A program made the translations under genes and the position numbers. From Arbacia lixula (taxonomy: Eukaryota > Echinodermata > Echinoidea > Arbacioida > Arbaciidae): DNA of 64,000 nucleotides. This document shows, piece after piece, positions 9,740 through 63,391 of this stretch. The notes below the pieces were generated by a model, which saw nothing but the letters and a program-made list of their open reading frames with translations, searched no databases and had not been told where the DNA came from. Location: assembly GCA_963669155.1 (NCBI GenBank), contig OZ022595.1, positions 20,142,991 through 20,206,990 on the forward strand, in the 5' to 3' direction. Each line of letters begins with the position of its first letter. Positions within the stretch are counted from its first letter, which is position 1.

Positions 9740-9929
9740 ATCACCACACTCGTCAACCACAAGGAGAAATCAAAGCGCTCGGAGAAGACGTGTCGCGCCA
9801 TCGAGCGCGTGGGTCAAGCCGTGCATCTCGCTGTGGAGAGGTTCGTTGCCGTGGGCGAGACCATCGCCGGGGACAACTATGACATCAGAGACGAGATGGC
9901 TGCGGCGTGTAGGGAGGCCCGTCTGGCAG
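9740..9929 (+). CDS. CTNNAL1: alpha-catulin exon a (first exon in window)
   Basis: The acceptor ccccacag precedes the exon and the donor gtgagc follows it. The exon is 190 nt, enters in phase 0 and leaves one base over. It reads ITTLVNHKEKS, then RVGQAVHLAVERFVAVGE and ends in EARLAG. Human alpha-catulin has ITTLINHKDN and RVGQAVNLAVGRFVKVGEAI in the same order, right after its N-terminal 45 or so residues. This is the start of the vinculin-like helical region. The exon is clearly more G+C- and CpG-rich than its surroundings. Reading past the donor stays open to a stop at 10058-10060. Decayed copies of the exon end and donor follow in the intron. Confidence 0.92.
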
Positions 9930-10283
9930 GTGAGCGAGGGGGGAAATTAAGTCTGTACCAACCAGACAGAACACTACTCCATCTACCATTGGTGTTAACA
10001 TGTGACAATAGAATGGAAGGATTTAATGTGGATGGTAGATTTTGTTTTGTTTGTACTTAATGATGCAAACTATTCAGCTTGCAGGTGAGACTCAGAAAGT
10101 GGGGCAATTAAGTCTTTACGTCCAGACAGACTGCTGCTCTCTGGGACCAGTGTGTGTTACTATTACGAGAGGATGGCAGGGGGACATGAAGAGTTAACAT
10201 AGGAGCTAGGTTTGGTTTGGATGTGAGAGAGGTGAGAGAGTGAGTAGTTGATAATAATAATGATAAAAGTAATAATAAAATTA

Positions 10284-10364
<81 letters not shown>

Positions 10365-13300
10365 GTGTACTATATTTGTGTAGCGCTTAACACTGTGTTT
10401 CTAAGTGCTTAATAGAGAGAAAATAAAAAAATATTGTCTTTTCTTGTTGTGTTTACACTTAATGATATAAAGTATTCAGCTTACAGATGAGAGAGTAGGT
10501 AGTTTAGTTATTACATCCAGATAGAATGCTGCCGTATGGAGCCTGACTGTGGAGTACTGGTGTTAAAATGTGATGATGATGCATAAAGACTTAACCTAGG
10601 AGCTATATTTTGTTTTTTGCATTTTTTTTAAGTATTCATCTTACAGATGAGAGAGAAGGTAGTTAAGGTATTACATCCATATAGAATGATGCTCTATAGA
10701 ATCTGTGTGTTTTACTGTTGTAAGAATGTGATAAGGGGATATAAGTGTTTAAATGGCATGTTATCATTTTGTTTTGTTTGGATTGTATGATGCCAAGGAC
10801 TTGGCTTGCATGTGAGAGAGGGGAAAAATTAACACATTATATGGCAGGCAAGCTGCAGCACTTGAGAATGTGTGTGAGTTATGTGTGTCAAAAGAACATA
10901 GTGACACATTTAGAGCTAACTTGGGAGGTAGGTTTGGGGGTTTCTTTTGCTCTTAATGATGCAAAGGACTCGGCTTGGCTTGTCTATCAAGGTTTCATGA
11001 GTATAGTCCGTGATATTAAAGGGCATACACTGTACTGGGAAGGCAAAAAAGCCTTCAAAATGTAATTATTAGGAATCTTCTTGCCAATGGTGTTAAATTC
11101 ATGTATTGTCCATTTTAGAAGCTTGCTGAAAGTTATTTGCCCTCAAATGATCCACATATGGAGTAATTAATGATTAATGATTAAATCCTCAAAATGTTCG
11201 GGCTGAACACTTTGAGGATTTGTGATTTGATCACTCATTACTCCAAATGTAGATCATTTGAGGGCAAATAACTTTCAGCAAGCTTCTAAAATAGACAATA
11301 AGACCATTGGCAAGAAGTTTGCTAACAATTACATTTTGAAGGTTTTTTTGCCTTCCCAGTACAGTATATGCCCTTTAAGGATAAGTGTGTTACTATGCCA
11401 AACTGTAGCTGTGGTTTGGTTGATACCCTCAGTGCTTATGTGAGTGAGGAGGACTCACTTTGTACAGGTTACTTTGTCCTTACATGTATAAATGTGACAC
11501 TTGCAGTAGAGAGAATAGGAGATAAACAGAAGTTGTTTAATCATTTGTGTTTTATCAAAATCTTTAGTTTCTGTGCCAGATCAAATGCTAGCTTATGTGA
11601 TATTTTGTTTTAATGTAATGGTGGCATTTAAAGGGTTAAGAACCAAGATTGTGTGTTCAGAGAATATCCTCACTCCCTTTTTGTGAGGAGGGGGGGGGGA
11701 TGAGGGAGGGGAGGGAGGGGAGGGAGGGGGAGGGAGGAGGGAGGGGAGGGGAGGGGAGGTCACATATTATGATGAATACAATCAATCAATCTGTAATAGA
11801 TAAGGCTGAAATCCCTTGAGACCCTCTTGGGTGAAGATCTATAGCAACACCCCAGGATTAAGCTCAGGAAAATTGAATGAATGTTTGGAGATGTTCAGTG
11901 GAAAACCTTGAATCTCAACCCGTGATATTGTATCTTATCCTTGTGTACTGCTAGGTTACATGTTTGATTAACCTCTGGTGTACTAGACAATGTAGGGCTC
12001 TATGGGCGAGGATGAGGTATGTGTGTAGTATGTGTGCAAAAACACATCATTTGTGCATTCTGGATTAATGGAGGGACTGTCTATCCCTTCCTGGTGCTTG
12101 AAGCTAGGGTTCAATAGTTAACCTCGTGTTTGGACAGGGGAGGAGAAGGAGGAGGAGGGGCCGCTAACAGGGGGCGGAGAGCTTTACCCCTGTAAGGCCA
12201 CCCTCTCTCTTTACTGCCCTGGATCGATCCCTTGTATCGCTCCAGCGGTTCGCTTCTGGGGGAGAAGTTGTTCGTATTCATGACAACCAACGGGGTTGGA
12301 GCCTGATCCATTGCAACCTTGGTGAACCCATGGTTTATCACAAAATGCCACTCCATCCATTGATTAGGGTTTGGTAGTCACTGCTACTCCTTCCATCTAT
12401 CCCTGAGTGTGCCATGAGTGAATCTTACCCCAAGTGATACACACAACAGCTCTTGTCACAGCTAACTCTCCAAGAGAACACTCTTCTCTTACCCTCTCTA
12501 CTTGATCTGTTTTCTCCCATTCTCTCACTCGCTTTCTGAACAATTCTTTTCATAGCTACACTGAAAGAATAACCTAATAGTCCTTTTAAGGACCATCTCA
12601 TGGTGTATCTTTTCTCACTTGTTCTATGAGCAGCTCTTTTCAGAGTTATACTGAAAGACTAACCCAACAGTGCTTTCAAGGACCATCACTGTCACCGTTC
12701 TCCCTTTTCTCATTCACTCTCTGAGCAGCACTTTTTAAAGTTATGCTGAAATTATAACAATCCAACAGTTCTTTTAAGGACTATCACATAGTGTACTATT
12801 TTTTCTCACTTTCTGAGGAGCTCTTTTCAGAGCTATTCTGAAAGACTAACCCAACAGTGCTTTCAAGGACCATCACTGTCACCGTTCTCCCTTTTCTCAT
12901 TCACTCTCTGAGCAGCACTTTTTAAAGTTATGCTGAAATTATAACAATCCAACAGTTCTTTTAAGGACTATCACATAGTGTACTATTTTTTTCTCACTTT
13001 CTGAGGAGCTCTTTTCAGAGCTATTCTGAAAGACTAACCCAACAGTGCTTTCAAGGACCATCACTGTCTCCGTTCTCCCTTTTCTCACTCACTCTCTGAG
13101 CAACACTTTTGAAAGCTGTGCTGAAAGAATAACCTAACAGTTCTTTTGTGGACTATCGCATGAACTGTGAACTCATTCCATAACTAACAGTCTTTGTACT
13201 GTGAAACTCTTTTTACATCCTAACAGTCCTTTAAAGGACTATTTCATGGTGTACTGTGAAACCCATTGCATAACCTTGCAGTCCTTTTATGGACTATCAC

Positions 13301-47822: not shown

Positions 47823-47888
<66 letters not shown>

Positions 47889-48487: not shown

Positions 48488-48537
<50 letters not shown>

Positions 48538-48783: not shown

Positions 48784-48828
<45 letters not shown>

Positions 48829-50330: not shown

Positions 50331-50394
<64 letters not shown>

Positions 50395-53300
50395 TCTCTC
50401 TCTCTCTTCCTCTCTCTCTCTCTCTCTCTCTCTCTTCCTCTCTCTCTCTGTCTACTCATACTTCCAGGAATGCCAAACACATCTATTGGTATTAATGAAA
50501 GAGTAAAGTACATGTCGTGTCAATTAAAAACTGTAGTACATTGCTCTCTCTTGTTTTGTTTCCTGTAGGTGTGTCGGTTACTTGGTCATGTGTCCAGCCT
50601 GCCTCCACTGACCATTACGTGTGACCATGCAGAGAGCAGTATTGCCACACTGGACTCTCAGGTAAACCAAGTCACCATCTCTTGTTCTCAGTTTGATGTG
50701 ATGCCTGCTCCAGAGCTGCCAAGTCTCCCTACTTTCACTGGAGACTCCATGAAAATAGACCAATATTACTGCATTCATTTGGATTTCATCTCATCAACCA
50801 ATCTCCCTGATTATTGATAGATTATTGTCATTAGGTTGTATGCATTTGATAGACATCTCCCTGATTTCTGATGGAATTTCCCCAAATCTTCCTGATTGTT
50901 GAGTTTCATTGTTGGTAGCTCTGCTGCTTTTCAACTTGTATTTAAAATTATTCCAAATTTGGTATATTTTTAATGATTTTATCAAACAAGAATGAGTCCA
51001 CTGGCCATGGCTGAGTTGCACTCCATGAATCATGGGTCCTTGCAGTATTTGTTATTACCTGTTACTTTCAACAAAATTGTAACTTCCGTGGAAACACCCA
51101 ATATTTGGATGGAATTGATATCTGTCCTATCTTTAAAAACTTTTTTCCAGTTTTGTAATTGAGTGGTGACTCAAGACTAATTTGATCTGTCTCATGGTTC
51201 AGACTAACACTGAGTGAAATATAGACCAAAAAGGAAGGAGTTGCTTCGCTGCAGTTTTGGTCTCAAACTTTCAGACTCGACAACAACATTGCACTTATGG
51301 CAAGTATTATTCAGTATCGCCTCATCTCTGAGTACTACTGACGCTTCAACTTTTATCTGTCAGACAAATTACTGCCTCGTGTGTGCATTACTAGTGAAAA
51401 AAAACTTACAGATGGGGCTTATAGATTTAAATATATAAATTTGTTCTTCGTTTGCTCATCCCTCTAGATGACCGGTGCAGCCATCACTCTGGCTATGAAC
51501 CACAACAGTAAGATAGCCAGGGAGAACCTCGACGTCTTCAATGATGCCTGGGAGTGCCAGGTCAACGACCTCAGTCTTCTGGTCAAGGAGGTCCACGACT
51601 GCTGCTTCGGCAAGACAAGTAAGGACATTTGGTCTAGTCATCTGCTCTGTACCCAGGGTGTGTTTAGCTGGGATGTAGAAGGGTGGGTAAGAGAGAGATG
51701 TATAATATGAAAGAATGAAGGGGTTGCACGACTGCTGCTTCGGCAAGACAAGTAAGGACATTTGGTCTAGTCATCTGCTCTGTACCCAGGGTGTGTTTAG
51801 CTGGGATGTAGAAGGGTGGGTAAGAGAGAGATGTATAATATGAAAGAATGAAGGGGTTGCACGACTGCTGCTTCGGCAAGACAAGTAAGGACATTTGGTC
51901 TAGTCATCTGCTCTGTACCCAGGGTGTGTTTAGCTGGGATGTAGAAGGGTGGGTAAGAGAGAGATGTATAATATGAAAGAATGAAGGGGTTGCACGACTG
52001 CTGCTTCGGCAAGACAAGTAAGGACATTTGGTCTAGTCATCTGCTCTGTACCCAGGGTGTGTTTAGCTGGGATGTAGAAGGGTGGGTAAGAGAGAGATGT
52101 ATAATATGAAAGAATGAAGGGGTTGCACGACTGCTGCTTCGGCAAGACAAGTAAGGACATTTGGTCTAGTCATCTGCTCTGTACCCAGGGTGTGTTTAGC
52201 TGGGATGTAGAAGGGTGGGTAAGAGAGAGGTGTATAATATGAAAGAATGAAGGGGTTGCACGACTGCTGCTTCGGCAAGACAAGTAAGGACATTTGGTCT
52301 AGTCATCTGCTCTGTACCCAGGGTGTGTTTAGCTGGGATGTAGAAGGGTGGGTAAGAGAGAGATGTAAAATATGAAAGAATGAAGGGGTTGCACGATTGC
52401 TGCTTTGACAAGACAAGTAAGGACATTTCGTCTAGTCATCTGCTCTGTACCCAGGGAGTGTTTAGCTGGGATGTAGAAGGGTGGGTAAGAGAGAGATGTA
52501 AAATATGAAAAAATGAAGGGGTTGCACAACTGCCTATTCGGCAAGACAAGTAAGGGCATTCCTTCTATTCAGCCGCTCTGTACCCAAGGTAGGTTTAGCT
52601 GGGATGTAGAAGGGTGGGTAAGAGAGAGAGATGTAAAATATGAAAGAATGAAGGGGTTGCACGATTGCTGCTTCGGCAAGACAAGTAAGGACATTTCGTC
52701 TATTCATCTGCTCTGTACCCAGGGTGTGTTTAGCTGGGATGTAGAAGGGTGGGTAAGAGAGAGGTGTAAAATATGAAAGAATGAAGGGGTTGCACGATTG
52801 CTGCTTTGGCAAGACAAGTAAGGACATTTCATCTAGTCATCTGCTCTGTACCCAGGGTGTGTTTAGCTGGAATGTGGAAGGGTGGGTAAGAGAGAGGTGT
52901 AAAATATGAAAGAATGAAGGGGTTGCACAATTGCTGCTTTGGCAAAACAAGTAAGGACATTTCGTCTATTCATCTGCTCTGTACCCAGGGTGTGTTTAGC
53001 TGGGATGTAGAAGGGTGGTTAAGAGAGAGATGTAAAATATGAAAGAATGAAGGGGTTGCACGATTGCTGCTTCGGCAAGACAAGTAAGGACATTTGGTCT
53101 ATTCATCTGCTCTGTACCCAGGGTGTGTTTAGCTGGGATGTAGAAGGGTGGGTAAGAGAGAGGTGTAAAATATGAAAGAATGAAGGGGTTGCACGATTGC
53201 TGCTTTGGCAAGACAAGTAAGGACATTTCATCTAGTCATCTGCTCTGTACCCAGGGTGTGTTTAGCTGGAATGTGGAAGGGTGGGTAAGAGAGAGGTGTA

Positions 53301-56300
53301 AAATATGAAAGAATGAAGGGGTTGCACAATTGCTGCTTTGGCAAAACAAGTAAGCGCATTCCCCTCATTCAGCCGCTCTGTACCCAGGGTGGGTTTAGCT
53401 GGGATGTGGAGGGGAGGGTCAGAGAGAGATTTAAAAGACAATATCATAGAATGACCTTACATAATTCTGACAGTGCTGGGTAAATGAAGAAGGTTGCATG
53501 ACTTTGGCAAGACATGTCAGACCATTTCTTCATACATGTTGGTGGTTCTAACATTATTCCAGTATATTATGTTGCATTTTTCTGATTAATTTTTAGCTAT
53601 GCAACTTGCTGAGCAATGTCTGCCCATCCTTGTTTAGTTACTTCCTCTGTTTTTAGTTACTAAGTGGTTTTTTACTTATTTGTGTTTTTCTTCTCGCCAT
53701 TTTCTTTCCAGATAATAAACAAGTGTATCTATCACTTCCAAGACCAGGGGTAAGCGTTTTCTCAAGATGTCATTCTTTCCTTCTCAATCACTTCCCAATC
53801 ATTGTCTTCCCCTTCAGACATTCAATCATTTGAGTTGCGCTTTTGACCGTTTGAAAGCTCTTGACGTCCGATACCCTTTTCTTTCATCTTGAATGCTCAA
53901 CATCCATGCTTGAGAGGTGTGCAAAGTATTGGAGAGGGATTTTCTCCATCATGGTTTTCCAAAATAGATTGAAATGAAGTGGACTCGTCATTTTTGTCTT
54001 CAACTTTTGCAATTTCTCCCAATTGTTTACTTTCTCCCCTTTCTCCTTGTGTGTTTTGTGCCGTGTCCACTCCGGTATTTTTTGTTAAATCCCCAAATTT
54101 ACCATTTCCCAGCATATTTTTCTGATATTGTAGATATCACCCCTTTAGGGATGTTACATGCTTGTAGATATATCTATGATATCTTTAATAATCTATCTTC
54201 CCAAGCCTTTGTTGATGCTTACAGACAAATAGTACTACTTGTGTTATTTGGGTGATTCCACAGGGTTGGGGCAATTTTTATGACATACCACAACTCCAAA
54301 TCCATATATTTTTCAAACCAGCCAAATATAGTCCAATAATGACATGAGCAAACAAATGGCGTCCCATCCAGTATTATTTCTCAAAAACCATGGCATATTG
54401 CAATTTGACTTATGAAAATTTCTTGTCCACGTAAAAACAATATGATGTCCCTGTAATGGTGGTAGGTTTTTGTATGCCTGTTGCTTCAAATCCATAAAAG
54501 ATGTCCATTTTTAACATCTATTACTGAAAAAAGAGATTTCAAAACTTAACTACCTCTGAATTGATCTTCATGGTGAACTGCAAAGGTTGATACCGCCGTT
54601 ACATGGACATTGCATGAAAACTTTGCCCCAACCCAATGGAATGACACGTATACCCAATGCTATAATAGATATACAGATAATGTGTATTTTTAGAGTGATA
54701 ATTTATCCCTTATTCTGTTCTGTTCCCCACTGCAAAATCCTGTCATTCTGTTTTTAGTGTGCTGTACAATTACTGTCATTTTATGTAATCAAATTACTCA
54801 GCAAGATAGTTCCTTCTATAACCTATATATAGATATATTTCCTACAAATTTTATTTATGCAAAGTTAGATATTAAGATTTTCATCAATACTTACAGCTTT
54901 TTCCAACTAATGTCATATGTGCCTAAATCCCCCAAATACCTTTCCCTCCCTCGCTTTATTTTGCGTTGTTTTTAAAGACTTTTAATTATTCTGTTTGGAT
55001 TCAAACTTTCAAAATCAGTTGTATTGCAATCAAACCATTTGCAAGAATGGAAGGAAAGATATTTCCAAACCTTGACATTTAACGCTCTCAGTACCCAACT
55101 ACTAAAATGCCATTTAGTTTCTACAAATTTACGTGCCATAGACAATGAGAGGGTAAATGCCACTTTGATTTATCTTTCTACTGCTATGCTTTATGTTTGT
55201 GTGTGTGTCTTTGAGCAATCTGAAGAAGATTTTCTCCTTATCATTTGAATTTTGTTTGTTTGCACTTTTAGGATGACGTTGTAAGTATTCTTAGGGGCCT
55301 CCTTGCCTGTGCGTTTCATTGCTATGGGTTCATTCTGCATTCTGCCTCATCCTATATTATCTTCATCTTCATTCCTCTCTCACATCCAAACCTCACTGAA
55401 TTAACCGCTAATATATCCTTCCTTTGAAGAATTGGATATATTGGATGCATTGGTTGGACAGGAAAACAATAAAAGCATGAATAATTATGTTTTTGATTGA
55501 TGAAAACTGACATAACTTGCACCAGGTGGGACTACACGAGGGAGAAATTAATAGTTCTTGGGTATAACAGCGTATGTGGTGATTTTGTTATGATGAGTTG
55601 TGTAAAGGGAGTGTATACCTTTTGCAGACGTCACCAAATTCTGTAAAACATTGCATGTACCACAAGAGCCACATCCAGGGCCCTGTTGCATAAAACCATT
55701 AATGGTAACTCTGCCATCAATAGCCACCTTCTAACTCTATTTGATCTTGACTCTAAACTCTCAACATGCCACCTGCAATATTTTTGCACCTCTAATCCAC
55801 AGACATCAATGGAGTTTTCTTTTCTTGGCACAAGAAGTGTTTATACTATCTAGAATGAATGGTCTCTCTTCAAGACTGAATGAAGTGACTAATCATGATT
55901 AATATATACAGGCCACTAATTGATTCATTGATATAACCAATGCATGAGTCCGTGCAAGATGACTAATTGAAATAATTAACAGTGAGGATTTATCAATTTA
56001 CCATTATCAAGATCTAAGCAAACACACCTCAAAGTTAATTTTTAATGGTATTAGTATTGTTCTTAATCTTCATCTGGTTATAAATATTGTTCATATTATC
56101 ATGATTAGTATTATTATTTTTACATTATTATTATTATTATTATCATAATTGTTGATATCATCATGAATGGCAGTATTTCATTGCAACTATACTCCTTCAT
56201 TACATTGCTATGCCATGATGCTATGGTACCATAGTAACATAGTAACATCATTGTAAACACAACATATCGTCTCTAAGCTTTCATTATAACATCCTTACCA

Positions 56301-59300: not shown

Positions 59301-62300
59301 CCCTTCTCTGTCTATTATTTGTTTGTCATGTATTGCTGCTAAAACAGAACAAGCATATCCCTTGGTGTGTTGATTCTTAAATGGTAAACTGATCCATCAC
59401 TTTAGCTTGAGTGAAGCAACCATGACAACATCCATATAAATAACTGGCATTATAGCAAGGATCTTTGGCAAACTACAGTACCTCCATAGGAACACACCTT
59501 ACAGCTTCCAGTATGTAATTTTTTATATTATTGCAGTTCCTAATTTGCCTTATTCTTAGCCTTATATATGACATATAGCTTGATGATGTCCTGCTTGTAA
59601 AATCTGTGAGAATTAAAAGAGTCTAAATTTTATATCAGCTTGCATTTTGGTGACGTTAAAGGTCAGAGGTAGAAGACTACAGGACGCATGATCAATTTTC
59701 CTTGTTCTGAGATAAAGCTTGATGATGTCCTGCATGTAAAATCTGTGAGAATTAAAAGAGTCCAAATTCATTTCTCTACATATCAGCTTGCATCTTTGGT
59801 GACTTAAAGGTCAGAGGTAGAAGTGGTGAACACTAAACAACGCATGGTCAATGGAATGCCATTCTGACATGACCATGGATCATATTCTAGTTTGAATTCA
59901 GGAATCATCTCCAAGTGATCAAATTGTTGCAGTAAAACAACATTTGGACAGAGTAGTGATTGCAAAGGAGTTTTATCATGATTACAGTTTTTATTACTAC
60001 TACTTTACATTACCTCTCTATCACATATATATATATATATATATATATACCCTCTGCACATGAATAACACTTTTTCTCATTAATCCATGCACATCTACTG
60101 TATATTGATCTAAATGTCTACATCAAGCTGCCAACCATTCTTATTCCTGAGGAATTATTTCTCTTTTTTTATGGACAAAAAACAATATTTCTGAATATGA
60201 AATTCCCCTTTTATTACAAAATCCAATGTAAAATTATCTAAAATTGCCATCATAAGATGAATGTAAGATTTATATATTTCCCCACAAATATAATTTCAGA
60301 ACTATACAAAATACACCAGTAACTAAGATACTTACAAGCACATAGGATGAATGAGGGCCCTGTTTTATAAAGAATTGCGATTGATCGCAACTTGATTCGT
60401 CATTGATATCAATCTCTTTTCATTATAGATATTGGATTGGATTTCAGATCATTCACAACTATTTATAAGGCATGTACCTGGTCTATTCTAGCAAAATATA
60501 ATTTCAAAGTATACAAAATAAATATGTGACCATCAATCATCAGAACAACATATCAAATATTTTGCCTAGAACTGTTGGCAGCCAAAAACATACATTGGAA
60601 TATAAGAAGAAGAATTGCAAAAATGTTTTTTTCTGAATGTTGTGAAAAATTTGAGAATGATATGAAGCTATGAATCAATAATTCATTATTGTAATATTTA
60701 AGGTTGAGTGGTTGGCAGCCATGTATCTGTATGTATGTATGTTTGTCTCTATATCTGTGTGATCATTAATTTTCCATCACTCACTCCCCCAGAAACACGG
60801 CACCACGGTGAAAGCAGCTAAACCGGTCAAGCTTGATGCTCAGGTATGGGACAGGATGGGGCGGTTCTCTAACTGAGCGCGCTGGGGAACCTTTGATATC
60901 AAAATGGGGATATAACATTTTTAAATATAAGAATTATTTCAGAGAGATACTTATGAAAAGTTATGACTATTCTGAAAATTGTCAAAAATTGAGGGCTTTG
61001 GTAACCCATGATGTTACAAGGGGGGCAAATCAACCTTTTAACTAGAATGTCAGAAATATTTTTATGAAACTTAAAAGATGATATGAAACCTGTGAATCTA
61101 TAAAGTTTGGGAGTTGCCATAGCAACACATGTTTTTATTGGATGCTATGTTTTGAGGTGTATTTTTTTCCATTGTTCATTAATAATTGGTCTTCAAAGCC
61201 CTGATTTGCTTGGTCCAAACATTCAAAACGAATGTTTGGATTTCATTAATTTAGCTTTCCTCCTCTGGACTCGTTATCCTCCGATCAAACATTCCTCCCA
61301 TACAAATATATAATCATAAAATTTCACCTCCCTGATGTTAATCTCAATTTTGTATCCATGTTTGAAAATACCATAGCAATATAGTTTAATAATATTCCAA
61401 CATTATTTCATCCTTATTATACTTATAATATACAGTGAGTTCATTCTTAACTTCTAGTCATATTGATAACCTTTTATTTATTTATGCATACATGTTTAAT
61501 CACCAATTATTTAATGTTAATATAATTAATTCTAATTCAGACATGGTTGAATATCTCCTACATTACTCTCATAATTTTGGTCTGCCTGAATATTAAGTTG
61601 TTACAAACAAGCATGTACCAACAAATCTAGCCATTGATCGTCCGATGTGAACTAAAACAAATCTATTCTCCTTTTATAATTTGTTTGTTAGATGAACAAA
61701 TGTGAACACTCAGTAAAAACTGTGATAATTTTTCCACACCTGAATGTCAGGGACAGCACATCAAACATATATTTAGGGGGGAGATGATGAGTGATACACC
61801 CTCTCAAGTTCTATTTAAACTTTTGGTGCACCCCATGAAGATTAATTTCTGTTGTGCTTGCAGATAAAAATGTTGGTGCACATATTTCAACTACACCTCT
61901 TTTTACTAATGTGTGGATTTTGGTGAATGAAACTTAAAGCACTTTGGCAGGCTTGGGACTCATGTGAATGGTTTGCTGGAATAGCATTGTTTAACCCAAC
62001 AATTTCTGGCACTTGTAATGATTCAAAGCATAATAATCAGTTGCTGTGACAACATGTTATGTAACATCTCACCTCTGAACGTTATCATCATATTGTAAAG
62101 CCAAGAGCGCCCTCTTTCACCCATATACTACATTTGTACGCCATCCCATATAATATCTCTTTTCAGGAGCAAGCCAAGATTGCAAAGGTCGGGCTGGAGG
62201 TCAAGCTGCTGACCTCAGAGGTCGACGCTGAGACGGAGAAGTGGGAGGATCAGACGGACGACATCGTCAAGCGAGCAAAGAACATGTCCAGCATGGCCTA

Positions 62301-63391
62301 CGCTATGTACCTCTTCACCAGGGGTGAGGGGTCACTTAAGACGACGCTAGACCTATTCAAACAAGCTGAGGTAAGGCCAGAAGAAGTCTTCAAGATATAT
62401 TGATGATTACCTCAAAGAAAACTTAAATTATCTAGTTTGTAACTCTTTACATGGGGTAAGGGATCACTCGCAATGACGCTAGGCCTGTTTGAACAAGGAA
62501 CGGTACATGAAAGGCCAGAAAGTCTTCAAGATATATTGATGATTACCTCAAAGAAAACTTAAATTATTTAGTTTGTAACTCTTTGCATGGGGTAAGGGAT
62601 CACTCGCAATGACGGTAGGCCTGTTCAAACAAGGAGAGGTACATTTAAGGCCAGAAAAAGTCTTCAAGATATATTGATGATTACCTCAACGAAAACTTAA
62701 GTTTGTAACTTTTCTTTCTGGGCGAGGGCTCCCTCACTGGACCTGTTCACACCAGATGAGGTCAGAATGATTTATTGACGATTACTCAAAGAAAACTGAA
62801 AAAAAAAGTTAGTTTATACCTCTTGAGTTGGGCGGGGAAAGTGTATGCTCAAGATGACACTCGTTCTATTCAATTCAATTCAATTCTTTATTCATTTAAC
62901 AAACAAGAATGAACAACTTTCATGAACAATGAATATAAGGCATCACCAGAAAGCGATTTTTAGACATTTGTAGACATTTAAATAACAGACTGAGAAACAA
63001 GGCTTTAATAATTGAATCTAAGATGTCTTTAGTTGATTTAATCATTTATTTGTCTCACTTTGTAATGTAGTACTATGCAGAAGAAGGCAACAAGCTCTTC
63101 AGTTCGGTCAGGGAGTTTGTAGACCAGATACCAGCTGAGGATACAAAGTCTTGATGATTGAATCTAAGATGGCTTTAGTTGATTTCATTGTTTATTTATC
63201 TCACTCTGTAGTACTATGCAGAGGAAGGCAACAAGCTCTTCAGATCGGTTAGGGAGTTTGTAGACCAGATCCCGGACTGCCAGCTAAGGAATGAGGTTTT
63301 GAACTACCTAGAGCAGATCCCGTCTCATTGCCAGCAGCTCACGTTTACCACCAAGTCCCCCTCAGCAGGCAAAGCCAGCACCTTCAACAAG
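9740..63391 (+). CDS. CTNNAL1: alpha-catulin (CTNNAL1) orthologue, partial gene, 14 exons plus one candidate microexon
   Basis: This entry spans the gene; the exons are listed separately. Joining the 15 segments gives 1947 nt (649 codons) with every junction in phase. The product aligns along its length with vertebrate alpha-catulin (about 734 residues as I recall), through blocks such as DFTDSAYTSHEHRERIL, SKIARENLDVF, NMSSMAYA and YLFTRGEG. Alpha-catulin is a vinculin/alpha-catenin family helical-bundle scaffold. From the literature it is cytoplasmic or membrane-associated, binds the Rho exchange factor Lbc and, in nematodes, links dystrobrevin to BK channels. The vertebrate N-terminal segment before ITTL and the C-terminal segment after the last exon are missing, so the gene runs off both ends or its first exon is unrecognised. 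Introns range from 286 bp to 27 kb. Several exon edges are tandemly amplified (see separate entries). Orthology is inferred from remembered alignments, not from a search. Confidence 0.93.
9930..11010 (+). repeat. decayed tandem copies of exon a end, donor and flanking intron
   Basis: The junction at 9929 (gcaggtgagcgagggggg, then aattaagtctgtacc and ccagacagaac) recurs in weaker form near 10080, 10480, 10640, 10810 and 10970. Recurrences read like gcttgcaggtgagac, cttacagatgagagag or gcttgcatgtgagagag, followed by aattaagt or ttacatccagatagaatg and preceded by acttaatgatgcaaa. Units are about 155 to 185 bp except where the AAT microsatellite intervenes. Confidence 0.7.
10247..10366. repeat. 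(AAT)n microsatellite
   Basis: About 30 near-perfect taa/ata/aat triplets lie in intron 1, with gataat interruptions at both ends. Confidence 0.95.
11016..11378. mobile_element. TTAA foldback MITE, family B, full copy
   Basis: It starts ttaaagggcatacactgtac and ends gtacagtatatgccctttaa, and the two arms of about 150 bp are inverted copies of each other almost throughout. Examples are gcttgctgaaagttatttgc against gcaaataactttcagcaagc. TTAA at both ends fits a piggyBac-like target duplication. Confidence 0.92.
11379..12555. other. intron, no recognised gene
   Basis: A (gaggg)n G-rich run lies at about 11688-11759. A minus-strand frame at 12111-12356 (81 codons) contains SPRSEPLERYKGSIQGSKE and has a more coding-like composition than its surroundings, but I recognise no family. 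Confidence 0.35.
12560..13520. repeat. compound minisatellite, two related unit types
   Basis: The first part has an approximately 180-bp higher-order unit, nearly identical in two copies (about 12640-12830 and 12830-13020). It contains ctctgagcagcactttttaa and taacagttcttttaaggac. The second part, from about 13130 on, has approximately 60-bp units built on cctaacagtccttttgagga and gtactgtgaaactcat. Confidence 0.82.
13521..16982. other. intron, unique sequence with old retroposon-like fragments
   Basis: No gene was seen. A segment at 14690-14760 (gtgtttcaccaagctgttcg) and one at 15003-15150 (taaccagggtggtcttttca) look like dispersed repeat fragments. A segment near 46385 has the related ttacccagggtagccccttc. 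The 66- to 88-codon minus frames here have no recognisable content. Confidence 0.4.
16983..17525. repeat. 28-bp minisatellite, about 19 copies
   Basis: The unit aggacatgagtccttttggc plus gctacatc repeats without gaps. Substitutions are rare: tgagtgctt in two adjacent units, ggtgctatatc once, and a variant ggcatgatttattt with gctacgtc in the last units. Variants cluster in neighbouring units, as expected from recent local duplication. Confidence 0.97.
17526..17929. other. intron, nothing recognised
   Basis: Unique sequence. A short stretch, cttctcatagcgtggtact, resembles the 76-bp repeat found after exon c. Confidence 0.4.
18309..18655. mobile_element. MITE fragment, family I copy 1
   Basis: It matches 57003-57391 through aataaatactattta, ccatgtggttg, cccacttatggggtga and atgggatggaatggaggtag. 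Its far inverted end is absent here, cut off where the Penelope-like element begins. Confidence 0.75.
18686..18743 (-). ncRNA. hammerhead-ribozyme-like motif of the Penelope-like element
   Basis: On the minus strand, order and pairing follow the hammerhead plan. An outer helix pairs gagt with actc and an inner helix tctc with gaga, together helix I. Then come the core cggatga, helix II (cggacag against ctgcccg, six pairs and one A-C mismatch, loop agcaca), the core gaaac and the cleavage-type triplet gtc. Helix III is minimal, as reported for ribozymes of Penelope-like elements. The core has G where the consensus CUGANGA has U, so activity is doubtful. Coordinates are from hand folding. Confidence 0.5.
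18953..21145 (-). CDS. Penelope-like reverse transcriptase with C-terminal GIY-YIG endonuclease
   Basis: The open frame ends at a TGA at 18953-18955. It stays open upstream past 20968 to the array junction, without a clear initiator ATG. I number residues from 20968 (671 residues onward). The Penelope-type block ILKADKGNATVIM is at 110-122 and FGQPKIHK at about 187-194. The catalytic aspartate of RT motif A is in FDVESLFTNVP at 256-266. GAAMGSPLSPIVANIYMEEF is at 320-339, and the YVDD active site at 357-360. A linker follows, then GIY-YIG with PGVYKIPC at 547-554, FYVGETGRSLRTRLKEH at 559-575 and a downstream WEKSAIVKH. RT copies the element RNA and GIY-YIG nicks the target in this family. 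It has no relation to the host gene, which runs on the opposite strand. No disruption is obvious in the two domains. Confidence 0.92.
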   Translation of the reverse strand: MSHTREQLHVVTQDIDSLQILLQGKLSQEDFKKIGAFNDEIYKKTFNRSRAKQLRKFSTLHPTREQPADTSAPARRKTVINLSDRSLSEDEQKVLQLGLNFAVAPKKIPFAEVIQQIEPNLRVLNKTTADSVRFQVSQVLSAAKPPRANISRDERAAIQGLRRDPSIHILKADKGNATVIMRQDEYDSKMESLLNTSTYTKLPRNPTAATERRINEKLLKLHREDIIPKPLYFKLRCSSSTCPVIFGQPKIHKPDTPLRPIVATRGSPTYDTARHLATILQPLVGNSSHHIANSKHFIEKLNAIQICPTDTLVSFDVESLFTNVPVSEACSIIRQRLEEDDALPERTAMSPEHIQDLLLTCLNSTSFQWRNSFYKQVEGAAMGSPLSPIVANIYMEEFETAALQASTLCPKLWVRYVDDIFVAWQHSRTDLQEFLYHLNHRHPSIKFTMEIEQDLSIPFLDVRITRTAEGKTSHQVYRKPTHTDRYLNFKSFHHPSVLQSVSSTLIRRAHDISDEEHLQQELQHIKTALTSINGYPPRKVKTSLPRPRTPAPPHLASVFLPYIGQASHKIQRILKNVNIQVRHRSSGKLHSKLFTHKDRKPPDTQPGVYKIPCECGQFYVGETGRSLRTRLKEHQTSFRRNEWEKSAIVKHAQQQNHRIDWSNAELITSIKHWHTRRVREAIEILQHDTVPQESGLVINDIWMPLLHHAHRQHHHAQRTRDDDLSESSGN
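21147..22153 (-). repeat. 304-bp tRNA-derived SINE in tandem, three units plus a partial
   Basis: The phrase attgaaaagactttctgggg recurs at 21147, 21451, 21755 and 22059, a period of exactly 304 bp with almost no differences. Each full unit holds a tRNA-like head on the minus strand (first one about 21265-21331) with B box ggttcgaatcc and an A-box-like tggttaagtcgc. A body of about 230 bp follows. The last unit stops after aatgaacgaaaaa. Head-to-tail SINE arrays of such identity suggest rolling or unequal-crossover amplification. Confidence 0.88.
22353..22729. other. intron, nothing recognised
   Basis: Unique sequence with a short (ga)n run at about 22525-22540. Confidence 0.4.
22730..22851. 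mobile_element. small foldback MITE, family C
   Basis: The ends ccaggggctctattcatgaa and ttcatgaatatggcccctgg are near-perfect inverted repeats. A decayed relative lies at about 33713-33825 (tgcccc with tacctaagtttagcaaac and tttcatgagtatatgg). Confidence 0.85.
22852..23600. other. intron, nothing recognised
   Basis: A+T-rich unique sequence. Confidence 0.4.
23601..23770. mobile_element. foldback MITE, family A copy 2
   Basis: The ends agtgccattctcattgggct and agcccaatgagaatgacact are the same family as 9184-9338. Flanking atg on both sides is consistent with a 3-bp target duplication. Confidence 0.88.
23925..24600. repeat. GA-rich polypurine stretch
   Basis: About 670 bp of GAGA/GAAA-type sequence, interrupted twice by similar blocks around gattgtgtctcgcagctga and gattatgtcttgcagctga (24589 and 24267). 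It is therefore partly a higher-order duplicate. Long Ser/Leu frames on the minus strand are composition artefacts. Confidence 0.85.
24925..25125 (-). mobile_element. solitary diverged copy of the tRNA-derived SINE
   Basis: It matches the 304-bp unit from aaagaaattt-aggcata to gacatggaaacaaatac at roughly 85%, including the tRNA-like head at about 25015-25082. It shows that the SINE also exists as dispersed single insertions. Confidence 0.82.
25126..26700. other. intron, homopolymer runs only
   Basis: A C-run lies at 25612-25629 and a T-run followed by a G-run at about 26446-26484. Nothing else was recognised. Confidence 0.4.
26705..26995. repeat. dispersed repeat, copy 1 (pair with 36600-36850)
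   Basis: Shared blocks in order are gtgaaccctggt, tgccatg-aactgca, ggcttaatt, tttgaagttcattca and agcctgt. Then come gtgctgct, ccgagtggaaaaacgccag and a cgggctca-taaa ending. No ends or coding content were identified. Confidence 0.7.
27248..27403. mobile_element. small inverted-repeat element, family G copy 1
   Basis: It begins acagtgaaacctg and ends aggtttgactgta, with internal agtggccac in both orientations and tatagacaggt. Relatives lie at 43556-43661 and as a fragment at about 34660-34690. Confidence 0.75.
27404..27993. other. intron, nothing recognised
   Basis: A+T-rich sequence; short minus-strand frames without recognisable motifs. Confidence 0.4.
27994..28143. mobile_element. small element with iterated cgttattccgaa inverted ends
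   Basis: cgttattccgaaggttcgtt at the left and aacgaaccttcggaataacg-like sequence at the right are inverted copies. The 12-mer cgttattccgaa is iterated at each end. Confidence 0.75.
28144..28768. other. intron, nothing recognised
   Basis: T-rich sequence with cttcttc stretches; no coding signal. Confidence 0.4.
28769..28975. mobile_element. MITE, family H copy 1
   Basis: The ends tagcctggtttacaggctgt and agaggcta are imperfect inverted repeats, together with ggacattt and aaatgtc. A relative at 57536-57723 shares agactagt, gattagtcta and cagccagaccca. Confidence 0.72.
29268..30165. repeat. 78-bp minisatellite, about 11 units
   Basis: The unit is built on tatggtgttgggctagatgt, gggctagaatcattgacat and agcatgtttttcctccttac, then tgagaaa. 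Central units (29640-29890) are spaced 77 to 78 bp apart and nearly identical; the left edge is diverged. Confidence 0.92.
30285..30720. repeat. G-rich degenerate repeat, about 4 units
   Basis: catcaatgctctgattagga followed by gttggggtggtagaagggg and long G runs recurs at about 30285, 30423, 30534 and 30646. The G-rich arms could form quadruplexes. Confidence 0.8.
30721..31572. other. intron, nothing recognised
   Basis: A 76-codon frame (31104-31334, +) in slightly richer sequence has no recognisable domain. Confidence 0.35.
31573..32087. mobile_element. TTAA MITE, family E copy 1
   Basis: TTAA ends flank inverted arms with aacatgaaagaaacat near the left and atctttctttcatgtttctg near the right. 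aagaaagttgggat also mirrors cataactttctta. The interior has cacctcgcacatgacct-like sequence shared with 58624-59076. Confidence 0.85.
32249..32777. mobile_element. TTAA MITE, family F copy 1
   Basis: It starts ttaaagacagcccgtccctt and ends aaaagggacggacaatcttt plus aa. It is 529 bp and about 95% identical to 38916-39442 along its whole length, including interior sequence. Confidence 0.95.
32774..33115. mobile_element. TTAA MITE related to family F, abutting copy 1
   Basis: It shares the TTAA at 32774-32777 with the preceding element. It begins ttaaagtactgtagctagtc and ends ataaaagggacaggccatct plus ttaa, terminal inverted repeats of family F type with a different interior. Confidence 0.78.
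33116..35593. other. intron, degraded element fragments and homopolymers
   Basis: A decayed family C copy lies at about 33713-33825, a family G fragment at about 34600-34690, and C/A homopolymer runs at about 34910-34925 and 35332-35374. The 150-codon frame at 33126-33578 (+) shows no domain. Confidence 0.45.
35594..35755. mobile_element. short foldback MITE, family D copy 1
   Basis: ctgggccctgttgcataaaa at one end and ttttatgcaatggacccag at the other. Internal accattgatggta motifs appear in both orientations. Confidence 0.9.
35765..36175. repeat. about 130-bp repeat, three units
   Basis: Units share agtactagcaagggctggta, ggattctgg, agcatatgagagagatagtc and gctttatatttccacctt. They begin near 35795, 35940 and 36065. 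Confidence 0.87.
36600..36850. repeat. dispersed repeat, copy 2
   Basis: Copy of 26705-26995; see that entry for shared blocks. It starts ttaacccattgcgcatgg, resembling a TTAA-type end. Confidence 0.7.
37223..37398 (+). CDS. CTNNAL1: alpha-catulin exon b
   Basis: The acceptor is ccaatcag and the donor gtgagt. The exon is 176 nt, takes one base from the previous exon and ends in phase 0. It reads GSNIAKLTDVTYDAAGQ, then RAARGLLSAITRVLLLADK and IVIKQISQSRNR. This matches the human segment with LLLADRVVIKQI and SRNK, part of the N-terminal helical bundle. The last 97 nt or so, together with the donor, are repeated three more times downstream at a 150-bp period. Reading through the donor meets a stop at 37429-37431. 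Confidence 0.92.
37399..37865 (+). repeat. 150-bp array duplicating exon b 3' end and donor, with telomere-like linker
   Basis: The genuine junction at 37398 is followed by three more copies, with ggtgcgagc-type landmarks at 37302, 37452, 37602 and 37752, exactly 150 bp apart. Each copy holds about 97 nt of exon, the donor gtgagt (gcgagt in the last) and intron ending cctagggtttagggttaggg. Copies differ by only a few substitutions. The last one shows more (gttgggagc, ctactgttag). Confidence 0.95.
37866..38545. other. intron, nothing recognised
   Basis: Unique sequence; a short fragment of family C type lies near 37955-37985 (aaggtttcgtgaatatagcc). Confidence 0.4.
38546..38687. mobile_element. 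family D MITE copy 2, diverged
   Basis: gcctgttgcat at the left, tatgcaacctggccc at the right, with taacttaccatcagtgg and ccatcaatggtaagtta inverted. Confidence 0.8.
38916..39442. mobile_element. TTAA MITE, family F copy 2
   Basis: Full-length partner of 32249-32777 in the same orientation, 527 bp with TTAA on both sides. The high identity implies recent transposition. Confidence 0.95.
39632..39794. mobile_element. family D MITE copy 3
   Basis: ctgggccccgttgcataaaa at the left and ttttatgcaacagggccctg at the right, with taccattaatggtaac inside. Confidence 0.9.
40094..40740 (+). repeat. about 650-bp polypyrimidine tract ending at the exon c acceptor
   Basis: TTC/CTC-rich with few purines, then CCCCTT-type repeats from 40480 onward, terminating in tccccctacag. 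Long frames on both strands are artefacts of composition. It is far longer than any functional polypyrimidine tract needs to be. Confidence 0.95.
40742..40861 (+). CDS. CTNNAL1: alpha-catulin exon c
   Basis: The exon is 120 nt, exactly 40 codons, phase 0 to 0, with acceptor cctacag and donor gtatgt. It reads VSHSLERIERTRSFTEFVQCF, then SQFGREMVELAHMTGDRQM. Human alpha-catulin has ERLEKVNSFQEFVQIFSQFG and EMVEFAHLSGDRQ here. The acceptor sits at the very end of an approximately 650-bp almost pure pyrimidine tract. A 76-bp tandem repeat starts within 30 nt after the donor. Confidence 0.92.
40875..41335 (+). repeat. 76-bp minisatellite starting just after exon c donor
   Basis: agaagcccattgacttagta recurs at 40899, 40975, 41051, 41127 and 41203 (76 bp apart), with a decayed sixth unit. 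Units include ctcttagtaccaagc and ctatagtactgagagggtta, which are mutually inverted and could form a hairpin. Similar single units occur elsewhere (about 14120, 17680, 55085), so the source is a dispersed repeat rather than the exon. Confidence 0.92.
41336..41690. other. intron, nothing recognised
   Basis: Unique A+T-rich sequence. Confidence 0.4.
41695..42567 (+). repeat. about 870-bp CT microsatellite ending at exon d acceptor
   Basis: Almost uninterrupted (CT)n/(CTCCCT)n with purines nearly absent. It includes partial higher-order duplication, for example around ctctctccctcactccctct at about 41944 and 42292. The 381-codon frame through it is an artefact. Confidence 0.97.
42569..42658 (+). 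CDS. CTNNAL1: alpha-catulin exon d
   Basis: The exon is 90 nt, 30 codons, phase 0 to 0, with acceptor ctcctcag and donor gtatgt. It reads DLKDERARAKMAATRTTLEK, then STTMLLTSCK, matching human NDLKDEKKKAKMAAARAVLE and MMLLTASK. It follows directly on an approximately 870-bp CT-rich tract that supplies the polypyrimidine tract. Long Ser/Leu/Pro reading frames run through that tract into the exon in the same frame, but these are simple-sequence artefacts. Confidence 0.91.
42945..43139 (+). CDS. CTNNAL1: alpha-catulin exon e
   Basis: The exon is 195 nt, 65 codons, phase 0 to 0, with acceptor catcatcag and donor gtaagt. It opens with TCLRHPECEPAKKARDSVF and continues RKALSSVDDIIYDKYDNKR, ending IMQELH. 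Human has TCLRHPNCESAHKNKEGVF. The second half (YDKYDNKR through SWPNMHS) is poorly conserved, as in the human stretch around VTDCKPNGE. It is separated from exon d by only 286 nt, the shortest intron in the window. Confidence 0.9.
43140..44146. other. intron with element G and AC/TA microsatellites
   Basis: Holds the family G element at 43556-43661 and (ca)n/(ta)n-rich sequence at about 43905-44075. The remainder is unique. Confidence 0.6.
43556..43661. mobile_element. small inverted-repeat element, family G copy 2
   Basis: tacagaaaacctgtacagaa at the left and agcaggtttcactgta at the right. Central agaccac and gtggtct motifs are inverted. Confidence 0.75.
44147..44350 (+). CDS. CTNNAL1: alpha-catulin exon f
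   Basis: The exon is 204 nt, 68 codons, phase 0 to 0, with acceptor cctgctgtag and donor gtcagt, a weaker donor than the rest. It contains DFTDSAYTSHEHRERIL, a 17-residue run identical to the human protein as remembered and the strongest single identifier of the gene. It continues LCDRAKTNLLALNEHGRTM, matching the region of human STQARMELQQL. Confidence 0.95.
44640..45190. repeat. degenerate repeat of about 110 bp, five units
   Basis: Blocks resembling gtgaaagtttccccaaggat, ttactt-gaagttgcgagtga, tatcccaatattgatttaac and atctccaatccag recur five times with 75 to 80% similarity. Confidence 0.78.
45437..45785. repeat. 47-bp minisatellite, about 7 units
   Basis: The unit is cctcattttaaagggagaca followed by ctcacagtatatatcttgta and atgaatg. 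A short, partial unit near 45717 breaks the period. Confidence 0.95.
45786..46541. other. intron, nothing recognised
   Basis: A possible retroposon-like fragment near 46370-46500 (acccagggtagccccttc). No coding signal. Confidence 0.4.
46542..46733. mobile_element. TTAA MITE, family B, deleted copy
   Basis: It carries the right arm of family B (atggtcaaaatgtttgg-type centre, gggcaaataactttcagcaa, gccttcccagtacagtatat) with TTAA at both ends. Most of the opposite arm is missing. Confidence 0.85.
46734..47660. other. intron, A/T-runs only
   Basis: Repeated tagtacgattt-type motifs at 46850-46920 and A/T homopolymers; no gene recognised. Confidence 0.4.
47668..47990 (+). repeat. (GT)n then pyrimidine-rich tract upstream of exon g
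   Basis: About 25 GT dinucleotides at 47668-47718 are followed by CT-rich sequence with pure (CT)n at 47838-47884. Further short ctatatacctatat-type repeats at 48020-48230 lead to the exon g acceptor. Confidence 0.95.
48254..48340 (+). CDS. CTNNAL1: alpha-catulin exon g
   Basis: The exon is 87 nt, 29 codons, phase 0 to 0, with acceptor ccacctgcag and donor gtatgt. It reads DKHPSDRQEDELEVLVVKM, then VKSISDLKKQ. This fits the human segment with AEELELSILKISHSLNELKK. It is preceded by GT, CT and TAYC simple repeats. Confidence 0.86.
48470..48945 (+). repeat. CT microsatellite tract leading to exon h acceptor
   Basis: A C-run, two pure (CT)n runs (48493-48534, 48788-48835) and mixed TCTC/TTTC sequence fill most of the 606-bp intron between exons g and h. 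Confidence 0.95.
48947..49105 (+). CDS. CTNNAL1: alpha-catulin exon h
   Basis: The exon is 159 nt, 53 codons, phase 0 to 0, with acceptor cccttacag and donor gtgtgt. It reads LQHTALDHASEIFKVGEDHT, then MLHRMKEAASLGQVDVVQQL and SVRFHDYADQIRE. The human counterpart is the segment with ELHSTATQLAADLL and LEALAEYACKLSEQKEQLVE. The last 110 nt or so plus about 85 nt of G-rich intron are repeated downstream about five and a half times. Reading through the donor ends at a stop at 49187-49189. Confidence 0.9.
49106..50240 (+). repeat. about 195-bp array duplicating exon h 3' part, donor and G-rich intron
   Basis: gataaaggaagctgcttcac landmarks lie at 49214, 49409, 49607, 49801 and 49998, with a decayed unit at about 50165. 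Each unit carries the equivalent of 48995-49105 (exon 3' part), a donor (gtgtgt or gtaggt) and about 85 nt rich in GGGG. Copies begin cattctacacag-tc, an acceptor-like context, but in the wrong phase: tc-atg-ata reads tca-tga from a phase 0 donor. They are therefore not ready alternative exons. Confidence 0.95.
50283..50465 (+). repeat. CT microsatellite upstream of exon i
   Basis: A pure (CT)n run of over 50 nt, then cctctctctctctcttcctc repeats. Confidence 0.95.
50569..50661 (+). CDS. CTNNAL1: alpha-catulin exon i
   Basis: The exon is 93 nt, 31 codons, phase 0 to 0, with acceptor cctgtag and donor gtaaac. It reads VCRLLGHVSSLPPLTITCD, then HAESSIATLDSQ. Human has TCRLLRHISGTEPLEITCIH and AEETFQVTGQQ. 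A long (CT)n tract lies about 110 nt upstream. Confidence 0.92.
50662..51467. other. intron, nothing recognised
   Basis: Unique sequence, though ctccctgatt/tctgatgga-type phrases recur weakly near 50805-50910. Confidence 0.4.
51468..51618 (+). CDS. CTNNAL1: alpha-catulin exon j
   Basis: The exon is 151 nt, enters in phase 0 and leaves one base over. The acceptor is cctctag and the donor gtaagg, after gacaa. It reads MTGAAITLAMNHNSKIAREN, then LDVFNDAWECQVNDLSLLVK and EVHDCCFGKT. Human has SKIAKENLDVFCEAWESQIS and LLREINDVFEG. The last 20 or so nt and the donor are the first unit of a 14-unit, 133-bp tandem array. Use of any later donor, or none, would run into the stop at 51708-51710. Confidence 0.93.
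51597..53460 (+). repeat. 133-bp array duplicating exon j end and donor, 14 units
   Basis: The junction gcaagacaa-gtaagg occurs at 51618 and then thirteen more times, each about 133 bp on, to about 53349. The unit holds about 25 nt of exon end (cacgactgctgcttcggcaa), the donor and intron through agctgggatgtagaagggtg and tgaaagaatgaaggggttg. The first six units are almost identical. Later units share variants (ttcgtctattcatc, gattgctgctttggc) in a block pattern: the series 52686-52951 is repeated at 53084-53349. That indicates duplication of multi-unit blocks. Confidence 0.97.
53461..53711. other. intron, nothing recognised
   Basis: Unique sequence up to the exon k acceptor. Confidence 0.4.
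53712..53749 (+). CDS. CTNNAL1: alpha-catulin exon k (38 nt)
   Basis: This short exon has acceptor tctttccag and donor gtaagc. With the carried base from exon j it reads NNKQVYLSLPRPG, which matches human EKYGYLSLPKP. The phases fit exactly: one base in, ending in phase 0. It is too short to appear as an open reading frame on its own and was found by phase and homology. Confidence 0.88.
54253..54647. mobile_element. inverted-repeat element, family L
   Basis: gtgattccacagggttgggg at the left and ccccaacccaatggaatgac at the right are terminal inverted repeats of about 27 bp. The interior of about 340 bp has no coding potential. Confidence 0.82.
55272..55280 (+). CDS. CTNNAL1: candidate 9-nt alpha-catulin microexon
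   Basis: The sequence gatgacgtt is bounded by an acceptor (gcacttttag) and a strong donor (gtaagt). It would add DDV in phase 0 between exon k (phase 0 end) and exon l (phase 0 start). Human alpha-catulin has a variable charged linker at this point, so an in-frame three-residue insertion is harmless. The gene also reads correctly without it, so this is a candidate only, likely optional if real. Confidence 0.4.
55281..57002. other. intron, one MITE end
   Basis: A family D fragment at 55677-55730 (cagggccctgttgcataaaa and ccattaatggtaactctgcc) lacks its other end. An AT-rich (ttattatta)n stretch lies near 56108-56145. Nothing else was recognised. Confidence 0.5.
57003..57391. mobile_element. 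MITE, family I copy 2 (complete)
   Basis: The left end tactaataaatactattta, with ccatgtggttg, mirrors the right end caaccacatgg with tactattttctaaccggta and tttcttagta. It is uninterrupted, so it gives the ground state of the fragment at 18309-18655. Confidence 0.82.
57536..57723. mobile_element. MITE, family H copy 2
   Basis: tagtctggctttcaggctgt at the left and ggctat at the right. Interior agactagtcc, gattagtctat and cagccagacccac are shared with 28769-28975. Confidence 0.72.
57724..58623. other. intron, dispersed-repeat fragment
   Basis: 58345-58440 (tctattcaattcttcattca and ttcatgaacaatgaatataa) is matched at about 62868-62955, so a dispersed retroposon tail is likely. The rest is unique. 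Confidence 0.5.
58624..59076. mobile_element. TTAA MITE, family E copy 2 (complete)
   Basis: It starts ttaaagggatagtccaccat and ends ggtggattttccctttaa. The inner arms are inverted (aaaatccgtcgaagga-caag against ctttgacggattttcg). 453 bp. Confidence 0.92.
59565..59830. repeat. tandem doublet of about 127 bp
   Basis: gcttgatgatgtcctgc-tgt, aaaatctgtgagaattaaaa and ttaaaggtcagaggtagaag each occur twice in the same order (59579 and 59707 starts). Confidence 0.9.
59831..60792. other. intron, (TA)n only
   Basis: (TA)n at 60027-60049; A+T-rich sequence otherwise, plus a gggccctgttttataaagaa fragment at 60356 of a MITE-like end. Confidence 0.45.
60793..60843 (+). CDS. CTNNAL1: alpha-catulin exon l (51 nt)
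   Basis: The exon has acceptor ctcccccag and donor gtatgg, 51 nt, 17 codons, phase 0 to 0. It reads KHGTTVKAAKPVKLDAQ, a basic linker. Human has the lysine-rich linker NANLKSLKPDKPDSE just before EQAKIAKLGL. The match is by position, composition and phase rather than strict identity. Confidence 0.82.
60844..62166. other. intron, nothing recognised
   Basis: A+T-rich unique sequence with short random frames. Confidence 0.4.
62167..62370 (+). CDS. CTNNAL1: alpha-catulin exon m
   Basis: The exon is 204 nt, 68 codons, phase 0 to 0, with acceptor cttttcag and donor gtaagg. It reads EQAKIAKVGLEVKLLTSEVD, then TEKWEDQTDDIVKRAKNMSS, MAYAMYLFTRGEGSLKTT and LDLFKQAE. It is nearly co-linear with human EQAKIAKLGL, IEKWEDQENEIV, NMSSMAYSLYLFTRGEG and PLKTTQDL. 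This is the most conserved C-terminal block of the family. Degenerate copies of the last 60 nt and the donor follow in the intron. Read-through ends at the stop at 62401-62403. Confidence 0.95.
62371..62860 (+). repeat. about 137-bp array duplicating exon m 3' end and its intron flank
   Basis: caagatatattgatgattac lies at 62391, 62527 and 62665, with a decayed unit near 62770 and a remnant at 62830. Copies include ggggtaagggatcactcgca, atgacgctaggcctgtttga and acaagg, diverged versions of the last 60 nt of exon m. The genuine donor gtaagg corresponds to less donor-like ggtacat in the copies. Confidence 0.88.
63071..63154 (+). pseudogene. partial upstream duplicate of exon n (acceptor and 5' half)
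   Basis: An acceptor-like aatgtag is followed by 63 nt nearly identical to the start of exon n (YYAEEGNKLFSSVREFVDQIP). Then comes unrelated sequence and an in-frame stop at 63152-63154. Flanking intron motifs such as tgaatctaagatg also occur on both sides, so an approximately 140-bp tandem duplication produced it. There is no donor before the true exon. If spliced in, it would truncate the protein. Confidence 0.8.
63212..63391 (+). CDS. CTNNAL1: alpha-catulin exon n (last exon in window)
   Basis: The exon is 180 nt, 60 codons, phase 0 to 0, with acceptor ctctgtag and donor gtatgc. It reads YYAEEGNKLFRSVREFVDQ, then IPDCQLRNEVLNYLEQIPSH and CQQLTFTTKSPSAGKASTF. Human has FAAEGLKLTSSVQAFSKQL and LIPLCHQLQTVTKTSLQNK. 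It ends inside the protein, so at least one more coding exon lies beyond the window. Confidence 0.92.

Follow-up and report, generated by a model that had tools for sequence, protein, structure and literature searches.

Mirage-like tandem arrays at exon edges of a probable alpha-catulin gene, and at sampled myosin and kinesin exons, in the sea urchin Arbacia lixula

Tandem repeats whose unit extends across an exon-intron boundary have been described in lancelets, where they were named mirages (PMC3087553, PMC3902484). Either the 5′ or the 3′ boundary can be affected, and many, but not all, of the copies keep the AG or GT signal. Mirage length varies between haplotypes, regular splicing is apparently undisturbed, and somatic instability is reported for the mirage of Adh3 (PMC3087553, which cites Canestro et al. 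2002 as earlier work on mirages). The second paper deals with a mirage in PGBD5, and with those of TnC and Adh by citation (PMC3902484). A paper on lancelet VCBP also mentions partial exons, splice sites included, that lie inside introns (PMC2632668). Finally, Rogers 1989 and later work proposed that introns can be gained when AG/GT proto-splice sites are duplicated in tandem (cited in PMC3087553). A search of the open-licence part of PMC, judged on titles and on the first part of abstracts, found no report of mirages outside lancelets.

The window analysed here, a stretch of 64,000 nucleotides of Arbacia lixula DNA, contains a gene with several such structures. Fourteen exons, all bordered by AG/GT sites, can be joined within the window into a single frame of 646 residues, which matches the Pfam Vinculin family at 1.8e-83, whereas the Vinculin matches of the unjoined gene pieces fall just under the cut-off. 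A human alpha-catulin probe, whose sequence is approximate, locates 12 of the 14 exons, in order, and is 46% identical to the joined frame over 648 columns. With a piece of 112 residues around exon m, matches were obtained to 11 alpha-catenin sequences of solved structure. Judging from these similarities, which are catulin-like along its whole length, the gene most likely encodes alpha-catulin, a member of the vinculin family. All exons lie on the forward strand, and they occupy 9740..9929 (a, 190 bp), 37223..37398 (b, 176 bp), 40742..40861 (c), 42569..42658 (d), 42945..43139 (e), 44147..44350 (f), 48254..48340 (g), 48947..49105 (h, 159 bp), 50569..50661 (i), 51468..51618 (j, 151 bp), 53712..53749 (k), 60793..60843 (l), 62167..62370 (m, 204 bp) and 63212..63391 (n, 180 bp). 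Exons k and l were missed by the probe, and are assigned from the frame and the splice sites. A search for further catulin exons over 20 kb on each side of the window gave none that was convincing (best E value 0.27), and neither end of the gene was reached. An Rfam scan of the window gave nothing at gathering score. The mitochondrial contig of the same assembly agrees with an echinoderm source and speaks against a lancelet: in its first 3 kb it bears a cluster of tRNA genes and an ND1 that gives GPN only when AAA is read as Asn, as in the echinoderm code, COX1 comes next, and the gene order is of the sea-urchin type.

Tandem arrays were detected by TRF and self-BLAST, and their make-up was read from monomer alignments. 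Four donors carry an array whose unit spans the exon edge, all on the forward strand. At exon b (37292..37866), 107 bp of exon and 43 bp of intron are repeated with a period of 150 bp, in 3.8 (about 4) copies. At exon h (48991..50149), the unit comprises 115 bp of exon and 79 bp of intron, with a period of 194 bp and six copies, followed by a decayed seventh that extends to about 50235. The array of exon j, from 51594 to about 53436-53454, is the one with 13.8 (about 14) copies of a 133 bp unit, made of 25 bp of exon and 108 bp of intron. About three copies, with a period of about 136 bp, are present at exon m (62306..62703). At exon n (62967..63273, forward strand) it is the acceptor side that is duplicated upstream, as two copies of 141-149 bp comprising the 3′ end of the intron, the AG and the 5′ part of the exon. 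The upstream copy (63071-63152) keeps the acceptor and an open frame ending at an in-frame stop (...IPAEDTKS-stop), and may be an alternative last exon. The arrays which the sequence-only reading had pointed out at these five edges are confirmed. It had also described exon a as followed by copies of its own 3′ end. A decayed array of five to six copies, seen by self-BLAST only, does lie there (9930..10890, forward strand, broken by (ATA)n at 10251-10364); its copies have in common the donor CTKGCAG|GTGAG and the proximal intron, and the exon part of the claim holds only weakly, with about 7 exon bases at most.

Other features read from the sequence were borne out, with different bearings on the interpretation. 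No self-BLAST match of at least 60 bp (E<=1e-8) joins one catulin edge array to another, and the units are indeed unrelated. The arrays differ in age: the nearest copies of j and b are 0 to 2.4% diverged from the real copy, against 7-13% for h and 16-17% for m. The splice signal is GT in 14 of the 14 j copies, and GC in one of the 4 b copies. The intact exon does stand at the outer edge of each array, which carries no information, as geometry requires it wherever a unit extends over a single edge. In-frame readthrough past the donor does meet a stop, within 28 to 307 bp; this is uninformative, since it occurs at all 14 catulin exons, with or without arrays.

The frequency of such structures elsewhere in the genome was estimated on 40 of 73 myosin-head matches (L043-L082) and 20 of 126 kinesin matches (L083-L102), the latter taken at 20 places spaced enough to be separate genes. 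A myosin gene on the unplaced scaffold C29 is 92-93% identical to that at G000:C3:16.56-16.60 Mb and, given this identity, C29 is probably a second haplotype of the latter. Its loci L069, L070 and L072 were excluded, leaving 57 exons (37 myosin, 20 kinesin) and 114 edges, a sample of two families in which several myosin exons come from one gene. An edge was scored as arrayed when it lay inside a tandem pair with at least 8 bp on either side, and alignments were inspected edge by edge. Edge positions were set by a script that scored splice sites with approximate weights; no site was found for the acceptors of L045, L050, L066, L068 and L086 nor for the donor of L062, and the end of the match was used instead. 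Duplications were present at 12 of the 114 edges, in 11 of the 57 exons: at both acceptor and donor of L055, at the donors of L058, L073, L074, L084 and L097, and at the acceptors of L061, L064, L075, L089 and L093, that is 6 donors and 6 acceptors. In the alignments the splice site is in register between copies, one copy of L058 having TT at the splice signal. The weakest cases are the L055 donor and the L093 acceptor (72-73% identity). Three candidates were not counted: copies begin past the donor in L043 and 3 bp past it in L081, and the L045 match was seen at E<=1e-2 and lost at 1e-3. With 12 of 114 sampled edges carrying them, exon-edge duplications look widespread in the Arbacia lixula genome, and independent edge arrays with decoy splice sites, as proposed for the catulin gene, do exist and recur in other genes. 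Outside the sample, a kinesin exon at G000:C21:15809812-15810710 gives four matches to one stretch of 22 residues, all within about 640 bp; their coordinates suggest an array on the acceptor side. ABC transporters were considered as a third family and dropped (21 matches, several of them on bacterial-looking contigs); on the small contigs C350, C245 and C443 of G000 their frames are mostly without stops, and these contigs are probably bacterial contamination of the assembly.

A stronger proposal was that a repeated process acts at exon-intron boundaries themselves. In the catulin gene the edge lies inside the unit in 5 of 15 arrays, versus 0.59 expected (P=0.00018, array a omitted). When array a is included and 12 of the 14 exons are considered, 6 of 16 arrays span an edge, versus a mean of 0.79 for random placement of a single unit (P printed as 0.0000) and of 2.39 when whole arrays are placed at random (P=0.023); on the same 12 exons, leaving array a out gives P=0.00095 for single units and 0.059 for whole arrays. 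The excess comes from a window that was chosen for this feature. In the sample, 12 of 34 arrays were at an edge versus 9.06 expected upon random placement outside exon interiors (P=0.13; L080 was left out, as its footprint fits nowhere), with 8 of 16 versus 5.63 for myosin and 4 of 18 versus 3.43 for kinesin. For the 40 myosin exons, haplotigs included, arrays covered 10 of 80 edges (12.5%) versus 122 of 1280 intron control positions (9.5%), and a rotation null gave a mean of 7.2 covered edges (P=0.16).

Array coverage in the sample was 12-16% in the first 100 bp of the intron, 12.1% in the outer 20 bp of the exon, 10.3% at 20-40 bp, 7.8% at 40-60 bp and 3.4% deeper, and it ranged from 5% to 21% farther into the intron (bins of 1,900 bp or more). 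The comparison of edges with exon centres and introns that had been suggested as a check was run here on the sample: edges exceed exon centres, as selection predicts, but do not exceed nearby introns. Targeting of edges by the duplication process is not shown, although the sample is compatible, by our estimate, with up to about a twofold preference. The catulin window is a local hot spot. By TRF, 17.2% of the window is covered versus 3.5% in 16 control loci at arbitrary round coordinates, and by self-BLAST 22.6%, versus 10.8% in the surrounding 40 kb and 7.8% in the controls (128 windows of 1190 bp at the same loci). Arrays were borne by 14 of 20 kinesin loci versus 30 of 80 control windows (Fisher P=0.012), and, with no clear difference, by 14 of 37 myosin loci versus 33 of 128 (P=0.21), so that a mild excess of arrays near exons is possible.

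The decoy copies themselves were then compared with the real ones. By approximate splice-site weights, the scores of decoy donors in h, j, L072, L073 and L097 differ from that of the real donor by no more than about 1.3 bits; splice-site strength does not mark the real donor, since decoys score about equally. Copies farther from the intact exon are more diverged from the real one in each of the 6 arrays for which at least 3 decoys were compared (rho 0.26 to 0.87), whereas the C3 myosin array, with all 7 copies taken, has no distance trend (identity 95, 93, 94, 90, 94 and 95% from the exon outwards). Sites variable among decoys of b, h, j, L073 and L097 number 8, 5 and 20 at codon positions 1, 2 and 3; L072, omitted from this count as second haplotype, gives 1, 0 and 3. 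Differences between decoy and exon at six other edges number 18, 10 and 34, figures that include silent changes of the exon itself. In 6 of 6 arrays, variation among decoys is lower in the exon part (0.031-0.104) than in the first 30 bp of intron (0.044-0.321), a contrast inflated by the last copy, whose intron may fall outside the array, and by array b having been split one base off. On small numbers, the pattern suggests that decoys are either replenished by the coding copy or not entirely free of constraint.

The catulin structures are quite probably mirages, that is, minisatellite-like tandem duplications across boundaries, of a kind apparently frequent in this species, purged inside exons and tolerated at their edges. 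As the sample shows, tandem duplication occurs often in the Arbacia lixula genome, its units measuring roughly 70-300 bp. By chance, a duplication would sometimes start across an exon-intron boundary. Those falling inside an exon would spoil the frame and be lost, as the depletion of exon centres suggests. When a duplication covers one edge, a complete exon would always survive on the outer side of the array, each extra copy having just one of the two splice sites, donor or acceptor. Exon definition would then be expected, from the arrangement of sites, to keep choosing the outer pair, because the outer copy is the only one with both an acceptor and a donor. The arrays would presumably drift from there on as near-neutral intron sequence, new copies seeming to arise mostly beside the intact exon and to decay with distance. 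Some observations go against this explanation: edges are in clear excess in the catulin gene (5 of 15 versus 0.59), with a leaning in that direction in the small sample of 57 exons (12 versus 9.06); the third-position bias, together with the low variation of the exon part, suggests that decoys are not wholly unconstrained; and the full C3 myosin array has no distance trend. An extension that we consider rather doubtful is that roughly one internal exon in five has a mirage, and that the intact exon is a seed, spawning copies that drift with distance and exchange sequence with that exon, whence the third-position variation.

Alternatively, a process such as breakage or re-replication tied to transcription or splicing might seed arrays preferentially at boundaries. 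The catulin excess, the 12 versus 9.06 of the sample and the kinesin loci (14 of 20 versus 30 of 80, P=0.012, the myosin figure being P=0.21) would favour it. Yet coverage has no peak at the edge and is not above that of the nearby intron, the two sample tests give P=0.13 and P=0.16, and the catulin window was selected for the pattern, so that we consider such a process unlikely. That the copies are functional, as alternative or mutually exclusive splice sites regulating catulin or giving protein variants, could account for the strong donors kept in decoys, for variation that is chiefly at third codon positions and less marked in the exon portion of the unit than in its intron portion, and for the upstream copy of exon n, whose acceptor, open frame and stop could make an alternative last exon. 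Donor-side copies nevertheless lack the exon's acceptor, readthrough meets stops, copies range from identical to decayed, arrays are found in unrelated genes, and the lancelet data suggest that regular splicing is unaffected (PMC3087553); we therefore find a functional role very improbable.

Copies made or miscounted by the assembler would be conceivable in a species described as highly heterozygous (PMC11310861), and one of whose unplaced scaffolds resembles a second haplotype. Against this, the copies differ from one another, the catulin arrays are shorter than 2 kb, the published assembly was built from HiFi reads (PMC11310861), and an array is present in both probable haplotypes of a myosin gene, which makes an artefact extremely unlikely. 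Last, units might belong to a dispersed repeat or to an introner-like element inserting at splice sites. The 76-bp array beside exon c has that appearance, as its unit has inverted ends and recurs in related form at another place in the window. Two edge units were searched against the genome, however, and neither proved dispersed: that of h was met in full nowhere else, its 11 other matches being 40-68 bp long and confined to the G-rich part, and that of myosin L073 gave its own two loci and, in another myosin exon, a single stretch of 60 bp. The edge units are mutually unrelated and contain the exon's own coding sequence; we give this possibility practically no credence.

The earlier remark that no named system of this kind was known is not supported, since the lancelet examples already bear a name (PMC3087553, PMC3902484). 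As in lancelets, tandem units lie over an acceptor or a donor edge, AG or GT is kept in many copies, units are independent from gene to gene, and copy number differs between haplotypes, the unit of the myosin donor array having 7 matches on C3 and 6 on C29, a length difference between what are probably two haplotypes. The Arbacia lixula arrays differ by their echinoderm host, by the presence of five edge arrays (six with a) in one gene, and by a frequency estimated on an exon sample. Units are of 10-160 bp in the lancelet papers, and offsets reach 270 bp in the Arbacia lixula sample, with up to 14 copies. Intron gain of the type described by Rogers likewise multiplies splice signals, whereas the copies seen here remain within an existing intron. 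Ordinary intronic minisatellites have equal unit sizes, and edge arrays differ from them by the coding sequence and splice site in the unit. The structure is thus a striking one of a documented kind, apparently unreported for echinoderms, and it suggests that mirages are typical of genomes rich in tandem duplications, and not of lancelets alone. If the frequency found in the sample holds, a large share of the exons of this species have strong decoy sites within a few hundred bases. Such exons would be natural experiments on the choice of the spliceosome among equal donors, and their arrays testable material for the published idea that mirages give rise to new introns. If moreover intact exons do act as seeds, exon edges would permanently hold spare splice sites, and would go on offering a way for exon ends to shift and for introns to be gained.

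In the catulin gene, ten other arrays sit wholly within introns. The 76-bp array (40873-41331) is one of them; it starts about 12 bp after the last base of exon c and does not include the edge. AACCCTC...GAGGGTT form the inverted ends of its unit, to which an inverted copy at 17668-17745 is related. Another repeat, at 16983-17521, is a 28-bp minisatellite with 19 copies at 96%, whose unit holds the palindrome GGACATGAGTCC. The intron between exons a and b also contains, at 18953-21250 (reverse strand) and 21145-22158, a long open frame in which a reverse transcriptase domain is recognised, this being the single Pfam match to pass its cut-off. By eye, one end of the frame looks GIY-YIG-like; the frame probably belongs to a Penelope-like element. 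Its upstream end is overlapped by 3.3 tandem copies, at 99%, of a 304-bp unit.
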